A stretch of 33,013 bases of DNA from an uncultured bacterium (GTDB taxonomy: Bacteria > Actinomycetota > Actinomycetes > S36-B12 > CAIYMF01). Position numbers and translations under genes: made by a program. Shown here piece after piece: positions 23,203-32,285 of this stretch (position 1 is the stretch's first letter; each line of letters opens with the position of its first letter). The stretch lies in assembly GCA_903927265.1 (NCBI GenBank), contig CAIYMF010000203.1, positions 1 through 33,013 on the forward strand, given 5' to 3'. Under the pieces are notes generated by a model. It ran no database searches and had not been told where the DNA came from. It saw only the letters and a list, made by a program, of their open reading frames with translations.

Positions 23203-23463
23203 TCACCCGATGGGCCAGATGTACTGCCACCAATAAGGCTGGTCGTGCGGCTGCCACTGCGCCACCACTGCAAGTTCTGCATCGGAAAGTTGCCAGGTCG
23301 TCGCACGCGCCTTGTACCGAATGAGGTCTCCGACGGTGACGTCGAAGCCCGCCTCGGCGGCCAACTCTGCGGCGGTCGCGGCATCGCTCACGCGGAGCCT
23401 CTGCTGCAGAGCGCGATCGCCACTCACCTTCAGCAGGAATGCGTTCAACTGATCGGCAGACAC
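23203..23463 (-). CDS. Nif11-type small protein with aromatic tail (possible RiPP precursor)
   Basis: An 86-aa protein starting at GTG 23463 (GGGAAGG 9 nt upstream; a TTG at 23472 overlaps the esterase stop). Residues 1-50 follow the Nif11 pattern (MSADQLNAFLLKVSGDRAL, AAELAAEAGFDVTVGDL), and LSDAELAVVA (59-68) matches the leader end of Nif11-like (NHLP) precursors, where a GG usually follows. Here GG is missing, and the last 18 residues are rich in Trp, Tyr, Gln and Pro (QWQPHDQPYWWQYIWPIG). Nif11 domains are leader regions for modified peptides, but free-standing Nif11 proteins also exist. It is directly downstream of the esterase gene. Confidence 0.75.
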   Translation of the reverse strand: MSADQLNAFLLKVSGDRALQQRLRVSDAATAAELAAEAGFDVTVGDLIRYKARATTWQLSDAELAVVAQWQPHDQPYWWQYIWPIG

Positions 23464-23468
23464 GTGCG

Positions 23469-24200
23469 TCAACCTTCCCGTACCTGGGCAAACAACCAGT
23501 CGGCAACCTCAGGCGAGTAGTACGCGATGTCCCAGACGTCGTGTCCGAAACCTTCGAGTTCGGTGTATTTCGCGGGTGAACCCTGCGCGGCGAGTGCCGC
23601 CATCACGACGCGCGTATCGGAAACAGGGAACACCGGATCAACATCTCCGTGGAAGTTCCAGAGCGGCAGATGCCGCAGTCTCGTCGCCAACTGCTGTGCC
23701 GGATCACCATCAGCGTCGGGTACGACCGGGTCTGGGTCTGCAAGGAGACGTCCGTCGTCGAGCCGCGGCCGAACCACGCCTGCCACGATCAATGCGGCAG
23801 CGAACAGATGCGGGTGACGGTACAGCGCATGCCAGGCGGCCTTGGCTCCGGTAGACACCCCCGTCACGTAAATCCGGTTCTGGTCAACGCTGAAGTCTTC
23901 CTGAACCTGCTGTAAGACGAGCAGCGCGAAGTCAACATCATGTGACAGCCACACCGGCTGGTACGAAGGAACTTGTGGAAACACGACCAGACCCGGGTAG
24001 CGAGCGGCGTTGCGGCGAATTGCGCTTCCGAGTTGGTATTCGGTGGGAGCCAAAGCGTCTCGGCCACCCTCCCCTGCCCCGTGTAGAAACAGGATTGTCG
24101 GCCATGCGCGCTGTGCGTCGTAGTCGCTTGGCACATACACCTGGTACAGCCGCGTCTCGCCCGCTTGCTGCAGCGAGCGGGTAAGGAAGCCAGTGTCCAT
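23469..24200 (-). CDS. Esterase-type alpha/beta hydrolase
   Basis: A 243-aa protein resembling the LpqC/feruloyl-esterase and S9-like group. TILFLHGAGEGG forms the oxyanion region, the nucleophile elbow is GVSTGAKAAW (Ser in G-x-S-x-G), the likely acid is in NFHGDVDPVFPVSDTR, and the His is in GFGHDVWD. No signal peptide. ATG 24200 lies exactly 6 nt after TAGGCT (leaderless pattern). The gene directly precedes the Nif11-type gene and is divergent from the methyltransferase, which puts it at the edge of the putative peptide locus, where it could act as a hydrolase or acyl-transfer enzyme. Confidence 0.85.
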   Translation of the reverse strand: MDTGFLTRSLQQAGETRLYQVYVPSDYDAQRAWPTILFLHGAGEGGRDALAPTEYQLGSAIRRNAARYPGLVVFPQVPSYQPVWLSHDVDFALLVLQQVQEDFSVDQNRIYVTGVSTGAKAAWHALYRHPHLFAAALIVAGVVRPRLDDGRLLADPDPVVPDADGDPAQQLATRLRHLPLWNFHGDVDPVFPVSDTRVVMAALAAQGSPAKYTELEGFGHDVWDIAYYSPEVADWLFAQVREG

Positions 24201-24216: not shown

Positions 24217-24272
24217 CTTCACGCACCTGACTCGACACCGACCGACGCCCCACAACCGAGAGAGTGATCCTC

Positions 24273-24971
24273 ATGCCTGCCGGCGCTGCTGATCTCGACG
24301 CCCTCGGTAACGACTACCGCGTGGCGTTGATGTCGATGTACGCCAACGAAGGCCAACTCGGTGCCAGCGGCCAACGACACGACATCGACGACTCGACACG
24401 AATTTCAGTCGATGAAGGTTTAGCGCTCTACTCACTGTGCGTTGAGTCAGACGTGACCACAACCCTTGAAGTGGGCCTCGCTTACGGGTTCAGCACGGTG
24501 TACCTGCTGGCAGCGCTTGAACACAATGGTGGTGGCACGCACGTGGCCATCGATCCGTACCAAGCGACCGACTGGAACGGCATCGGCATCACCACTGCGC
24601 GACAACTCGTTGCGCAGAGCACCACACTCCCCGACGAGTCGATGATGCTCATCGAGGAGATGTCACACGCGGCTCTAGTCGATCTTGAACGCATCGGCGC
24701 GAGCTTCGGTCTGAGCTTCATCGATGGCTACCACCGCTTTGACGACGTACTCGTTGACTTCACTCTGGCCGCTCGGATGTGCCCGATTGGCGGCGCGATC
24801 GTGCTGCACGACACGTGGCTCGACAGCATCGCCGCAGTTGCGTCATTCCTGCGCAGCAACCGCATCGACTTCGTCGAAATCGATACCGAATGTGAGAACT
24901 TGTTTGCCATGCGACGAGTGACTGACGATGAACGCGACTGGCGACATTTCGTCGACTTTCCTCTTCGTTAA
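24273..24971 (+). CDS. Class I SAM-dependent methyltransferase (Methyltransf_24-like)
   Basis: A 232-aa protein from ATG 24273 (GTG 24264 also in frame; GAGAG upstream). The Rossmann methyltransferase motifs are LEVGLAYGFSTVYLL (motif I), HVAIDPYQ (acidic end of strand 2), LSFIDGYHRFDDVLVD (motif IV) and GGAIVLHDTW (motif post-IV). These match small O-methyltransferase-type enzymes often found in glycan or natural-product clusters. Acceptor unknown; by position it may modify a sugar or a peptide of the neighbouring locus. It converges with the GT4-like gene, with a 7-nt gap. Confidence 0.85.
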   Translation: MPAGAADLDALGNDYRVALMSMYANEGQLGASGQRHDIDDSTRISVDEGLALYSLCVESDVTTTLEVGLAYGFSTVYLLAALEHNGGGTHVAIDPYQATDWNGIGITTARQLVAQSTTLPDESMMLIEEMSHAALVDLERIGASFGLSFIDGYHRFDDVLVDFTLAARMCPIGGAIVLHDTWLDSIAAVASFLRSNRIDFVEIDTECENLFAMRRVTDDERDWRHFVDFPLR

Positions 24972-24978
24972 CCGTTCT

Positions 24979-26661
24979 TCACGATTCGGGGAGCCACTCA
25001 ACGACTCCTGCTTTGGCCAGCCACATCACGGTCATGCGAACAAACGCGCGTCGGCCCTGCGGGAACGACTGCAGAAGTTCGCTCACGGTCAGCGTTCCCG
25101 CGTTACCGAGCAATGCGACGACCTCCGCCGCTTCGCTCTCGTTTCCGCGCAGCCCTGGGAACATCGCGTCGAGTTCGACTAAGGGGTTGGGTAACAGTAA
25201 GTCGGAGCCTCCGTTGGCGCCCGCAGCAAGTTGTAGCGCCAGATCGTCGGTAAGAACTTGAGTGGGTAACGGTCGAAAGTCAACGAATGGGTCGTTTCGC
25301 AATGGATTCATTCGGTGTGCCGAGACGACCGGCACCGCATGCGCACGACGCTGTGCAAGGTCAGCAAACAGTTCAGCGTACTGCGCGGCGACCACGGGCC
25401 ACGCATACATCTCACGCGCACGCTGGCGGGCCGCCGCTCCCATCGTGGTGCGCAATTCTGGCGAGGCATTGAGGCGACTAAGCGCGGCCGCTGCGCTCGG
25501 TACATTTACGGCCGTGTGTGCCGCAACGGCTCCGCCATATTGCGAGTAGTCAACGAGATCAAGCAACTGAGCCAGCGCCAACGTCTCACCGAGCGCACCT
25601 CCTGGCCCTCCCAGCGTTGGTATCAGGAAGCCATCAACCTCATCGCGGACGATCGACCGGTATCCGTCCCAATCGCTGACGACCAGCGGCAGTCCGGCGG
25701 CCATCGCTTCGGTGAGTGCCTGCCCGAAGGTTTCCAAGATCGTGTCTGACAGCAACAGGAAGATGTCAGCGGCGGCCCAACACTGCGCGACCACCGTTGC
25801 ATCGTTGCCGTCAAGAAATGTGACGCGTACCGAAGGTGCGTACGCGCGTGCGGCCGCTTCGAACAGGGGTCGATCTCGCTCTGGGTCTGGGAACCAACCT
25901 GTGAGCACGAAGTGGGTTGTCACTTCCGACTGGTGGTGAGCCGCTTCGACCGCTTTGAACATTGCTTGCGGGAAAGCTTTGTCGTAGTACGAGAGTCGGC
26001 CTAAGAAATAGACCATCACATCGTCCTCGGCAATACCGAGTGACGCTCGCAATCGCGCTCGCGCGTCAGCGTCGTTGGACTGCACTTCAATCTCAGCGAC
26101 ATTCGTGCCGAATGGAATCACCGGTAACTGCGGTCGAGGAAGAGTGGCGGCCCCTAGCCGCTCCTGAAGGTAGTTCTCCCAGCGATCGAAGGCATCTGCG
26201 ACCGTGTCGCGCAGTGTAGGCGATGAGCAGATCATGGCGTCCCACTCATACAGAGGAGCGAGGGCCGACTGCATCATTTGCTCGCGATGTGTCGCTGACG
26301 CGTACGCGAAAATGGTGCCGACGATGCTGTAGTCGATGTCTCGCCCCGCGTGACGCCGCACCCACGCGGGTTCTGCAAGGTAGGGCTGGCCCGAAAGTTG
26401 AATTCCGGAACGCACTGCGGCCGATGTCGACAGCGCTGACCCTGAACTAATCACGACTGTGTCGTCATCGAGGCGAAGTTCACGCGCTAACTGCTCGGAA
26501 TCCGGTGGCGTGCGACTTTGAAAATGCAACCGCCGATAGCCGCCGTGACGGGCGAGTGCTCGATAGGTGCCGGCATTCGCCACGAACCGTCCGTAGGGGT
26601 TGGTGGGCGGCTCTACTTGTCCTCCTGGCAGGTAGATGACCAAATCCTCGGACGGCGTCAT
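24979..26661 (-). CDS. GT4-like glycosyltransferase with C-terminal winged-helix-like extension
   Basis: A 560-aa GT-B-fold enzyme. After a divergent N-terminal domain, the C-terminal GT domain shows VMVYFLGRLSYYDKAF (about 235-250), CWAAADIFLLLSDT and the donor-binding E-x7-E in LETFGQALTEAMAAGLPLVV, SDWDGYR. The last 110 residues (about 451-560) are not part of a normal GT4 enzyme. They end in an alpha-helix/turn/helix pattern (EVVALLGNAGTLTVSELLQS, then MTVMWLAKAGVVEWL) that resembles a winged helix or a PqqD-like leader-binding domain. Donor and acceptor unknown. GATGCT lies 6 nt before the ATG, a near-match to the leaderless pattern. Divergent from the next glycosyltransferase-like gene. 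Confidence 0.8.
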   Translation of the reverse strand: MTPSEDLVIYLPGGQVEPPTNPYGRFVANAGTYRALARHGGYRRLHFQSRTPPDSEQLARELRLDDDTVVISSGSALSTSAAVRSGIQLSGQPYLAEPAWVRRHAGRDIDYSIVGTIFAYASATHREQMMQSALAPLYEWDAMICSSPTLRDTVADAFDRWENYLQERLGAATLPRPQLPVIPFGTNVAEIEVQSNDADARARLRASLGIAEDDVMVYFLGRLSYYDKAFPQAMFKAVEAAHHQSEVTTHFVLTGWFPDPERDRPLFEAAARAYAPSVRVTFLDGNDATVVAQCWAAADIFLLLSDTILETFGQALTEAMAAGLPLVVSDWDGYRSIVRDEVDGFLIPTLGGPGGALGETLALAQLLDLVDYSQYGGAVAAHTAVNVPSAAAALSRLNASPELRTTMGAAARQRAREMYAWPVVAAQYAELFADLAQRRAHAVPVVSAHRMNPLRNDPFVDFRPLPTQVLTDDLALQLAAGANGGSDLLLPNPLVELDAMFPGLRGNESEAAEVVALLGNAGTLTVSELLQSFPQGRRAFVRMTVMWLAKAGVVEWLPES

Positions 26662-26756: not shown

Positions 26757-27467
26757 ATGCTGATCCAACCCGTCGTTCTCACGATGCCTCGACGAGACCC
26801 GCAACACGTCGACACCATCCGTTCAGCATTTACAGGGGCTCGGGGATTCGCCGAGCCACTCGTCTACCGCGATGCACTCGGCGTGGGCGCTGCCGTTGCG
26901 ACTCGCGAGGCGATTGCACTAGCCGGGGCCGGGGGCCTGCACGTGCTCTTCCTCGAAGATGACGTGCTCGTCGACCACGAGGCACCAGCGCGTATCGCAG
27001 CAACCTCGTTCCCATCCAACGTTGCGGCAATCTCGTTCTGCGACATGCGTGAGGTTGCCGAGTTCTCGCCGAGTGGACTGTACGTTCTCAACCCCATGGG
27101 AAGCGACGGACGAGGCTGGTGGGGCAATCAAGCGCTGCTCCTTCACCGCGACATCGTGACGATGTGCGCGAGAGAAGATTGGTTTGGCCCTGAGATCGAA
27201 TCGTCGCTTGGCATTCATGTGCACAAAGAAACTTACGGCGACAACGGACGCAACTGCAGTGACATCCGACTGTCTCTCCTCATCGCACAGCACGGCGGCG
27301 AGCGAAGCGAGTACGCCGTGCACGTACCGAGTCTCTTTCAACATGTGGGGTACGAGTCGGTGTGCTTCCCAGGCCGAGGCCTAGGTGAGCGCGAGACTCG
27401 TAATTGGATTGCCGATCGGCGACGCTTTAACCTCGACGCGATTGTCGGAGCCGAACTGACTAGTTGA
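26757..27467 (+). CDS. GT25/GT-A-like putative glycosyltransferase
   Basis: A 236-aa protein from ATG 26757 (GGGAGG 10 nt or less upstream). The earlier TTG 26718 overlaps the -10 element and is unlikely. The central LHVLFLEDDVLVDHEAP (about 61-77) carries the acidic metal-binding E-D-D triplet of GT25-like and other GT-A enzymes; GWWGNQALLLHRDIV and HVGYESVCFPG follow, as in acceptor-facing loops. Likely nucleotide-sugar dependent glycosyl transfer; acceptor unknown. The 3' end overlaps the convergent neighbour by 8 nt. Confidence 0.65.
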   Translation: MLIQPVVLTMPRRDPQHVDTIRSAFTGARGFAEPLVYRDALGVGAAVATREAIALAGAGGLHVLFLEDDVLVDHEAPARIAATSFPSNVAAISFCDMREVAEFSPSGLYVLNPMGSDGRGWWGNQALLLHRDIVTMCAREDWFGPEIESSLGIHVHKETYGDNGRNCSDIRLSLLIAQHGGERSEYAVHVPSLFQHVGYESVCFPGRGLGERETRNWIADRRRFNLDAIVGAELTS

Positions 27468-28251
27468 CCGATTCGGGATCGTGGCAAATTCCGTTGATCG
27501 ACAATCCCTTGAAGCTACAATCCTCGATGCGCTCGTCAATAACACGATGCACGACGTCGCGCCATTGCTCGTCGGTCATCAGGTGGAATCGCGTCAGGTT
27601 ATTGCGCTCGACGCAGATGCGCAGCAATTGCTCGCACGACCAGCCGGGGATGTGCTCCCAGATTCGGCCGTTGTACTCATGAATGCGGTTCACTATCGTC
27701 CACGAACGATCGAGTAACTGTGTGTCGATGAGGAAGTCAGTGGCCCCGACATCGATGAGGTAGAACGTGGTCTGCGGAAAGAAGAAGTCAGTCGTAAAGG
27801 GGGCGATGTCGAACTCGTTCTGGCGTATCGCGCTGTATGACAGAGCGTTGAGAAAGTAGAACGATGCAGGTTCGATTGGAATGTGCAGCATTTCCTCGTC
27901 GAGGTAGACGTCGTTGGCACTCTTGCAGAGCCAGCCGATGCCATTGCCCTTGCAGTAGTCAAAGAGCATGTTGTCGAGATCGCTCGTACCGATCGAGTGC
28001 CCACGATTGAACGATGAATCCAGAATCACGCATTCAGGAAAGTAGCGCCGCCAGAGTTGAGTGTTGGCCCGCATCAATTCCGCGGTGTCTTTGCCACCAA
28101 AGTTCGTGGCCACCACGACCCGTCGAAAACGATGCAGAATCGGCAGGTTGTGAACGATAGACCGTTCGAGGGCTTCTACGTCACGCCGATCGGCGATGTA
28201 GCCGGCGGTTCCGTACACGCTGCGCGAGACGACATCACCCAAGCGATTCAT
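27460..28251 (-). CDS. Putative GT-A-fold glycosyltransferase downstream of the GG-leader peptides
   Basis: A 263-aa protein (ATG 28251; GTG 28257 also in frame; no clear Shine-Dalgarno). RRVVVATNFGGKD (43-55) is a nucleotide-binding-like first strand, and NRGHSIGTSDLDNMLFDYCK leads to GWLCKSANDVYLDEE, where N-D at 113-114 would take the place of the DxD motif. The rest is rich in aromatic residues (TDFFFPQTTFYLIDV). Several Cys lie near the C-terminus (CEQLLRICVE, DCSF, ICHD). It starts 20 nt after peptide B, in the same direction, so it is the prime candidate for a peptide-modifying enzyme. The family call is moderate. Confidence 0.6.
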   Translation of the reverse strand: MNRLGDVVSRSVYGTAGYIADRRDVEALERSIVHNLPILHRFRRVVVATNFGGKDTAELMRANTQLWRRYFPECVILDSSFNRGHSIGTSDLDNMLFDYCKGNGIGWLCKSANDVYLDEEMLHIPIEPASFYFLNALSYSAIRQNEFDIAPFTTDFFFPQTTFYLIDVGATDFLIDTQLLDRSWTIVNRIHEYNGRIWEHIPGWSCEQLLRICVERNNLTRFHLMTDEQWRDVVHRVIDERIEDCSFKGLSINGICHDPESVN

Positions 28252-28271
28252 GGCCACGCGAAGACGCTGAT

Positions 28272-28400
28272 TTATGCTTCGCCTTTGATTTTGAGAGTAG
28301 AAGAACCGAAACCGCCGATCACGTCATTCAACTCGTCCTCACTCAGTTCATCCGAGGGTTGAGGTGCAGCATCTTCGGATGCGACCGGCTTTTTTGTCAT
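28272..28400 (-). CDS. GG-leader precursor peptide B (42 aa)
   Basis: A tiny gene (ATG 28400 to TAA 28272), with AAAGGA 7 nt upstream. Residues 1-30 form an acidic leader ending DELSEDELNDVIGG, the L-S-x-x-E-L-x-x-V-I-G-G double-glycine motif cut by C39-type peptidases in bacteriocins and other RiPPs. Residues 31-42 are the putative core FGSSTLKIKGEA: no Cys, but two Ser, one Thr and two Lys. It is a clear paralogue of peptide A (same leader length, same GG position). Too short for most gene callers. Coding status rests on the paralogue, the motif and the Shine-Dalgarno. Confidence 0.78.
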   Translation of the reverse strand: MTKKPVASEDAAPQPSDELSEDELNDVIGGFGSSTLKIKGEA

Positions 28401-28459
28401 GACGGATCCTTTACTTGTTTCAGGGCGAACTCTTTAGGAGGTGAAGCCTCGAAGAGCGA

Positions 28460-28591
28460 CTAGCCCGCTTCGCCAACGGTGTGGCGGCCGTGAGCGCCAA
28501 CGCCCCCGATGACGGCGTCTAGTTCGGCATCGCTGAGTTCGGCTGCCTCACTTGGCATCTCCTCATCACGGGGTGCTTCTTTCTCAGTCAT
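28460..28591 (-). CDS. GG-leader precursor peptide A (43 aa)
   Basis: A tiny gene (ATG 28591 to TAG 28460), with GAGAGG 7 nt upstream. The 30-residue leader ends AAELSDAELDAVIGG, a textbook double-glycine leader motif. The core (31-43) is VGAHGRHTVGEAG: no Cys, one Thr, two His, one Arg. It lies 59 nt upstream of peptide B on the same strand. The two leaders are similar at the start (MT-K) and at the GG motif, while the cores share only the Gly-rich start and a terminal GEA, as expected for precursor paralogues. Confidence 0.8.
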   Translation of the reverse strand: MTEKEAPRDEEMPSEAAELSDAELDAVIGGVGAHGRHTVGEAG

Positions 28592-28671: not shown

Positions 28672-29178
28672 TCAGGAACCGAAAAGAGATTCGGGAAGTG
28701 CCGGCGGTGGTCCGACAATGTCGATGTCGTGATCCGCAGCCGCTGACATTAAGGCACCCATGTCAAACTCCCACGTAGCAGGCACTTCACCATTGACCGG
28801 AATACCGGCGGCCTGGACAAATCCAGCGAACCCAGCCGGCGCTGTCACGCTGATCAATCGAGCGGTCGGGCTGGTCACACCGAAAGCATGCGGCTGATCA
28901 GGCGGCAAGTACACGGCTCCACCCGATGCGAGCGACACACGCTCATCTCCGGCCCACGCGAGGATGCTGCCCTGCAGCACGTAGAAGATCTCTGCCTCAC
29001 CATGGTGAATGTGCATCGGCGTGACATCGCCTTGCTCACCCCATTGGTCAAGCAACGCAATCGAACCTTGAGTTTGCGAGGCATCGAGCACGAGGTCGAA
29101 CGTCGTCTTTCCTACCCACAGCAGCCGACGGCGATCCTGCGCATGCGATACGCCTACCCCGGATGGAAGAATCGACAT
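28672..29178 (-). CDS. Cupin-domain protein
   Basis: A 168-aa single-domain cupin starting at ATG 29178 (AGAGGA 7 nt upstream; the longer frame to 29214 has no such site). Cupin motif 1 is PMHIHHGEAEIFYVLQG with metal ligands H56, H58 and E63; motif 2 is AVYLPPDQPHAFGV with H98. Such proteins are metal-dependent dioxygenases, isomerases or sensors; no specific reaction can be assigned. It lies upstream of the two precursor peptides on the same strand and may be part of their operon or just a neighbour. Confidence 0.85.
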   Translation of the reverse strand: MSILPSGVGVSHAQDRRRLLWVGKTTFDLVLDASQTQGSIALLDQWGEQGDVTPMHIHHGEAEIFYVLQGSILAWAGDERVSLASGGAVYLPPDQPHAFGVTSPTARLISVTAPAGFAGFVQAAGIPVNGEVPATWEFDMGALMSAAADHDIDIVGPPPALPESLFGS

Positions 29179-29271
29179 GTCGCATTCCTCTGCAGTTGAT
29201 GCGCCGCATCTCATGGGTCGAGCGACTGCGCAGCGACCGTAACAGGAATGAAAACGCTCACGTTGTCTTGC

Positions 29272-31652: not shown

Positions 31653-32285
31653 TTACGCAGCAGCCAGCGTCGCCAATCGGAAACCCGTGTCGTCATCGGC
31701 ATAGAACGGGGCACCACCCATTGGCCCGTAGTCGCGGCGAACCGCCTTGTTCAGCGGCGTGATACCCGGCCCCCATGACCCACCTCGCACTATGCGGTTG
31801 GGGCCACTGGTGGGGTCAGGGTAGGCCGCACCCGTCCACTCCCACAGCGATCCACCCTGATCGAAGGTGCCGTAGTGGCTTGTCGATCCGGCATACGAAC
31901 CAACCGGTGTCAAGACGCCGCCGTCGCCGCCCTTGTAGACGTTCTGGAAGTTGGCGGCAGGTGCCTGCGCACCGTCGGACACCAAGGCAATGCGCGGCGG
32001 CTTGTCACTTCGCGTGGGGTAGTTCCAGTATTTGCTGTCACCGGACTTCTCCGGGTCGTAATACGCGGCCTTGTACCACTCGTCCTCGGTCGGAATCCAG
32101 AATCGTGCATCGGCATTGCGCTCGACGGATCCGGCTTCCTGGAAGTCGATCAAGGTGTAGGCACCAGTTTCTGTGCCACCACTCCCCCGTCCGTTGTGCA
32201 TCCAGTTGGCAAGTCGGGCGGCGTCGAACCACGTGACCCAGGCGATGGGACGATCTTCGGGTTGAGGCCAGACAGAAGAATCCGT
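31653..32285 (-). pseudogene. Truncated FGE/SUMF1-domain (formylglycine-generating-enzyme-like) protein
   Basis: About 210 codons of an FGE-sulfatase domain remain. The frame opens just after an in-frame TGA (32288-32286) and reads RPIAWVTWFDAARLANWMHN, then FWIPTEDEWYKAAYYDP, YGTFDQGGSLWEWTGAAYPD, IVRGGSWGPG and DTGFRLATL, typical of secreted SUMF1-domain proteins. The N-terminal part (signal peptide and first third of the domain) is missing. An internal ATG at 32201 exists but would start in the middle of the domain. I treat it as a broken gene; an assembly join or sequencing frameshift is the alternative. Confidence 0.7.

Follow-up and report, generated by a model that had tools for sequence, protein, structure and literature searches.

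The window, meaning the whole stretch of 33,013 nucleotides that was analyzed, encodes two short candidate precursor peptides beside a cluster of sugar-related enzyme genes. The peptides and the cluster genes are arranged as follows.

28460..28591, minus strand: candidate precursor peptide P0001, 43 aa, with leader 1-30 and core VGAHGRHTVGEAG
28272..28400, minus strand: candidate precursor peptide P0002, 42 aa, with leader 1-30 and core FGSSTLKIKGEA, 14 bases before the 265-aa gene
27460..28257, minus strand: 265-aa glycosyltransferase-like protein with a predicted GT-A fold, unmatched in Pfam and NCBIfam, gene found in 6 of the 166 genomes from the order
26757..27467, plus strand: 236-aa protein with an EDD motif, probably GT-A-like (weak model)
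24979..26661, minus strand: GT4-family glycosyltransferase, 560 aa (Pfam)
24264..24971, plus strand: Methyltransf_24 methyltransferase, 235 aa (Pfam)
23469..24200, minus strand: alpha/beta hydrolase, 243 aa (Peptidase_S9 and esterase models of Pfam)
23203..23463, minus strand: Nif11-domain protein without a GG site (Pfam); the open reading frame runs from 23472 and the GTG start at 23463 was set by alignment

Both candidate precursors possess an acidic leader that ends in a double glycine. The sequence-only reading placed GG at positions 29-30 of each peptide behind a shared leader, with differing cores and a separate Shine-Dalgarno sequence for each gene. Translation of the minus-strand frames bears this out. 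The leaders are identical at 13 of 30 positions and both end in E-L-S-x-x-E-L-x-x-V-I-G-G, an early Gly and GEA are all that the cores have in common (4 ungapped matches), and purine-rich, Shine-Dalgarno-like stretches lie directly 5' of the starts (TCTGAGAGGTCACGTG-ATG and AGTAAAGGATCCGTC-ATG). Net leader charge is -8 for P0001 and -6 for P0002. Both leaders contain V-4, L-7, E-8 and L-12 together with GG at -2 and -1, and these four residues are named in the C39 protease recognition rule in the excerpted text of PMC6363468. The motif [ED]LS..EL..V.GG, written after the peptides had been seen, is found at two places when all six frames of the window are scanned, and in none of 300 first-order Markov versions. 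Neither peptide matches an NHLP or Nif11 domain in Pfam or NCBIfam. Assignment as type-A lantibiotics was rejected (21.2 and 16.6 bits against a Pfam gathering threshold of 21.7, with no Cys in the core), as were matches to ComC, bacteriocin_sig, UPF0758 and ATP-grasp-target models, all below cut-off; these sub-threshold matches reflect the GG leader.

Relatives of the cluster are found in a few genomes and keep most of its genes in varying order. Besides the window's genome (G000; 3.67 Mb, 98.4% complete), the genomes of the order that carry the 265-aa gene are G042, G077, G082, G110 and G112, and among 394 genomes sampled from the class G000 alone possesses it. A genome_contigs search with the 265-aa protein returned six loci, five apparently already found and one, L081, new and from a genome outside the order. 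Genes for the 236-aa protein, the GT4 protein and the methyltransferase are present at all six loci, and the hydrolase gene at all except L079, where the contig ends. At L083 (G042) the GT4 gene is only a fragment (87 of 560 residues matched), and in two of the five other genomes of the order one cluster gene is cut or unseen. The Nif11-domain gene follows the hydrolase gene in the window and at four other loci, and its product retains LSDAEL without GG. Three gene orders are observed across several genera, with GG peptides in or beside the relatives' clusters. Neither the 265-aa nor the 236-aa protein found a match in phage records, among PDB sequences or in PHROGs, and the gene set is not described in the titles and abstract openings of the literature searched, within the terms and collection used.

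The sister species G001 carries both flanks of the window cluster on contig C26 at 92-97% identity. Between them, all three glycosyltransferase-like genes, the genes for the hydrolase and the methyltransferase, and the peptides are absent; what is left of the Nif11 gene is a 125-base piece from its 3' portion at 86% identity, within locus L156 (G001:C26:46000-58000). On this comparison, deletion from a cluster-bearing ancestor would be the simplest account of the G001 state. A cupin gene at 28672-29214 was excluded from the cluster: it was not found at the relatives' loci, and G001 retains it while lacking the cluster genes. The window also encodes a 182-aa FGE-sulfatase-domain protein at 31653-32201, outside the cluster.

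Ten intact cluster peptides were identified, two in G000, three in G082 and one each in G112, G110, G108, G077 and L081. Two of these are linked to the cluster less firmly: the G077 peptide and the remainder of its cluster are on separate contigs, and the G108 peptide is on a 3.6 kb contig where only an ABC2-like gene, the peptide and the methyltransferase are of interest. The G108 genome, at 63% completeness, yielded no 265-aa gene. All ten peptides terminate in Glu-Ala with no more than one residue after it (GEA in nine, LVYEAG in the tenth), whereas none of the eight other GG peptides of G000 and G001 does so (two from C256, one from G001 C8, two from C285 and three from G001 C5). Cores range from 3 to 19 residues and contain no Cys (10/10), and half of them also lack Ser and Thr. 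One G082 copy has a core of EAV alone, and tandem GLGEAG-like repeats are present in the G112 and L081 peptides. Across these sequences the GEA ending appears as a conserved part of the core cluster-wide and no coincidence of two copies, so a piece may be common to the products.

Codon changes between the G110 and G108 peptides differ by region. The leader shows 10 synonymous and 3 nonsynonymous changes in 27 codons and the tail 1 synonymous and 0 nonsynonymous in 5, against 6 nonsynonymous and 0 synonymous in the 7 middle codons compared, with one gap (leader plus tail against middle, Fisher 1.7e-4, for a single pair with a short middle stretch and a three-part division made after seeing it). 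The comparison of synonymous and nonsynonymous changes by part, proposed earlier, thus finds leader and tail kept and the middle replaced. The earlier picture, in which precursors were duplicated and their cores diverged while the leader was held, gains support from this pattern and from the C256 comparison below, but has to be amended for the conserved GEA tail. Frame-breaking changes in close relatives had been named as evidence against it. One exists, the G042 peptide having lost one base near codon 6 relative to G110, but the G042 cluster also retains its GT4 gene only as a fragment.

Further copies of the leader motif are present elsewhere in G000. Profile searches recovered a second GG-peptide pair on contig C256 and a third on C285, the latter with a wider profile. 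The C256 pair (L002:1474-1849) lacks GEA and lies between genes that by eye resemble AMP ligase and flavin reductase genes. The corresponding site in G001 (L012:1501-1623, C8) encodes one peptide instead of two; leaders are identical at 20 of 27 positions and cores at 3 of 24 or 27, in a setting where neighboring proteins are about 93-95% identical. At the C285 site, one pair of peptides compared between the two species keeps LVAR while in another RVRL is replaced by RPILTR. The C285 locus (L133:8884-9408) and its G001 counterpart on C5 (L134:3294-5184) encode GG-leader peptides with cores of 3-6 residues (LVAR and RVRL in G000; RPILTR, LVAR and YRI in G001). Encoded close to these peptides are a GT2 glycosyltransferase and a protein with a PqqD domain that partly matches TylF; a ClpX-like gene lies on one side and two genes for Clp proteases on the other. 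Four GG peptides of different leader types, one NHLP-like by eye, are found at L050 (G118:C86), on a contig with a C39 exporter. A1 matches in nine genomes of the order were set aside where long-frame rows look like chance (G009, G074, G072).

A single C39 match is found in G000, in a 737-aa protein on contig C99. Its best model is NHLM_micro_ABC1, at 776 bits against a cut-off of 853 (NCBIfam). It neighbors an ABC2-like protein, for which the NHLM model is likewise the best (537 bits, cut-off 709), and an HlyD-like protein that matches TIGR03794 partially (36 of 156) and TIGR01843 slightly better; none of the three NHLM subunit models (TIGR03796, TIGR03797 and TIGR03794) is matched above its cut-off. 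The exporter sits on another contig, unlinked to the peptides in the window, and scanning 19.9 kb of surrounding sequence for the motif revealed no precursor. Among the 166 genomes of the order, C39 is present in 43, including five of the six with the 265-aa gene (P 0.005, ignoring kinship), and it is also found in the genome of L081. The lone 265-aa genome without C39 is G042, at 79% completeness. The peptide profile matches 25 genomes at E <= 0.01, 21 of them with C39 (P 3e-11), a P value that likewise ignores kinship and comes from a profile that also catches Nif11- and NHLP-type leaders, whose exporter link is known. The G108 contig encodes in a row an ABC2-like gene (48% identical), a GEA peptide and the cluster methyltransferase; G042 retains an ABC2 remnant beside its peptide (83.5% over 85 aa), which is not seen in G110. 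The sequence-only reading had a shared enzyme holding the leader; since peptides unlinked to the cluster carry the same leader motif, the likeliest candidate for this enzyme is the C39 protease of the exporter.

The 265-aa protein is predicted to adopt a glycosyltransferase fold. Its model, built from 23 sequences, has a pLDDT of 94 and a pTM of 0.92, and 49 of the 50 Foldseek matches listed are GT-A glycosyltransferases, the other being an ADP-glucose pyrophosphorylase. In VIA the model gives a Z of 12.8 with TarP (rmsd 3.2, 174 aligned), and 854 of 999 chains reach a Z of at least 8. The model thus assigns the protein a GT-A fold, and from this fold we predict sugar transfer by a putative glycosyltransferase. 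The 236-aa model is poor (pLDDT 64), with weak best matches to a GT8 protein and the PBCV-1 capsid glycosyltransferase (TM 0.29-0.50), and the protein is probably GT-A-like. Relatives of the 265-aa protein with 30-46% identity are carried by 18 viral contigs (L084-L101, GC 0.27-0.34), on one of which (L091) the gene sits among GT4, GT2 and Methyltransf_24 genes. In the one viral contig whose neighbors were checked, no GG peptide was found near the 265-aa relative. The family therefore does not need a GG peptide, given a viral relative beside other glycosyltransferases where none was found.

We propose that the two open reading frames encode precursors of a small ribosomal natural product. The acidic leader would deliver each peptide in trans to the C39 protease of the NHLM-like ABC exporter on C99, which would cut after GG and export the remainder. 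Before export, the 265-aa, 236-aa and GT4 glycosyltransferases, the methyltransferase and the hydrolase would modify the core, the likeliest decoration being a methylated sugar. The invariant Glu-Ala tail could be a recognition element or the attachment point, and the Nif11-domain protein may be a peptide-handling partner. We infer cleavage, export, glycosylation, attachment site and Nif11 role, glycosylation from the neighboring genes alone. That the peptides are exported precursors we consider highly probable, and that their cores are modified reasonably probable; the combined reading, in which an NHLM-like system cleaves and exports a small modified peptide that is probably glycosylated, we favor slightly. 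In this arrangement we read the leader as held by the exporter, the tail as held by the cluster and the middle as free. Ser, Thr and Cys are the usual glycosylation sites. With half of the cores lacking all three and only Glu-Ala invariant, the sugar site may be unusual, the tail may serve recognition, or the enzymes may act elsewhere; for the same reason a standard glycocin appears unlikely. A new class of glycosylated RiPP can be suggested tentatively, with tiny Cys-free cores, a Glu-Ala tail that carries or directs the sugar instead of Ser, Thr or Cys, three glycosyltransferases, a methyltransferase and a Nif11-domain helper, and NHLM-like export shared with other GG peptides of the cell.

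Alternatively, the peptides could be exported unmodified, as class II bacteriocin-like or signaling peptides, while the adjacent sugar enzymes make an unrelated glycan. The short, Cys-free cores are compatible with this, as are the other GG peptides of G000, which lie beside AMP-ligase-like and flavin-reductase-like genes with no obvious modifier, and the viral members of the 265-aa family that act without GG peptides. It is rendered rather unlikely by the persistence of the peptides in the cluster across its different gene orders and genera and by the confinement of the Glu-Ala ending to cluster peptides in the comparison with the eight other GG peptides of G000 and G001. The tail could also itself be the product or scaffold end; Glu or the C-terminus would then be the site where a small molecule or sugar is assembled, and the middle would be a mere spacer. 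The EAV-only core and the GLGEAG-like repeats would fit such a scheme, but no known C-terminus-extending enzyme was recognized among the cluster genes, and the purely nonsynonymous middle of the G110/G108 pair, short as it is, has changed more than an idle spacer needs, which makes this account quite improbable.

Functionless chance frames might be suspected from the short length of the peptides and the frameshifted G042 relative. Conservation in seven genomes, which indicates that both are real genes, already refutes this idea, because homologs exist in other genomes; the codon pattern of leader and tail and the lack of the motif in the Markov versions also oppose it, leaving it extremely improbable.

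To our knowledge, the peptide products of uncultured actinobacteria are little known. The cluster described here is rare and conserved in such organisms and points to a modified peptide product of a kind not yet described. If the glycosylated-precursor reading is true, a sugar-modified branch would be added to the double-glycine peptides, from precursors whose small size allows them to be overlooked. Genome mining gains simple handles in the 265-aa protein and the tail motif, and with the leader held by the exporter and the tail by the cluster, what each end does becomes testable.

The system resembles NHLP/Nif11-type precursors as presented in the excerpted text of Haft 2010 (PMC2887384). The leader end fits the published logo (acidic residues at 1, 4 and 6, Leu at 2 and 7, Ser/Thr at 3, Val/Leu at 10 and GG at 12-13), a hypervariable core follows GG, the genome encodes an NHLM-like exporter and the cluster a Nif11 protein. 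In contrast to the systems in that excerpt, the window peptides contain neither a nitrile-hydratase nor a Nif11 domain, none of the cluster genes was recognized as encoding a TOMM or LanM enzyme, the cores possess a conserved Glu-Ala tail and the cluster enzymes are sugar-related. The logic of leader, C39 transporter and glycosyltransferase is shared with glycocins, as outlined for thermoglycocin in the excerpted text of PMC12457901. Compared with that outline, the cluster cores have no Cys and hence no disulfides, so that the Cys-rich nested-disulfide signature is absent, and they comprise 3-19 residues alongside three glycosyltransferase-like proteins. Class II bacteriocins and ComC-type signals have a similar short GG leader, reflected in the weak bacteriocin_sig, Bacteriocin_IIc and ComC matches below cut-off, but the peptides described here differ from both in combining a very short core with a conserved enzyme cluster.
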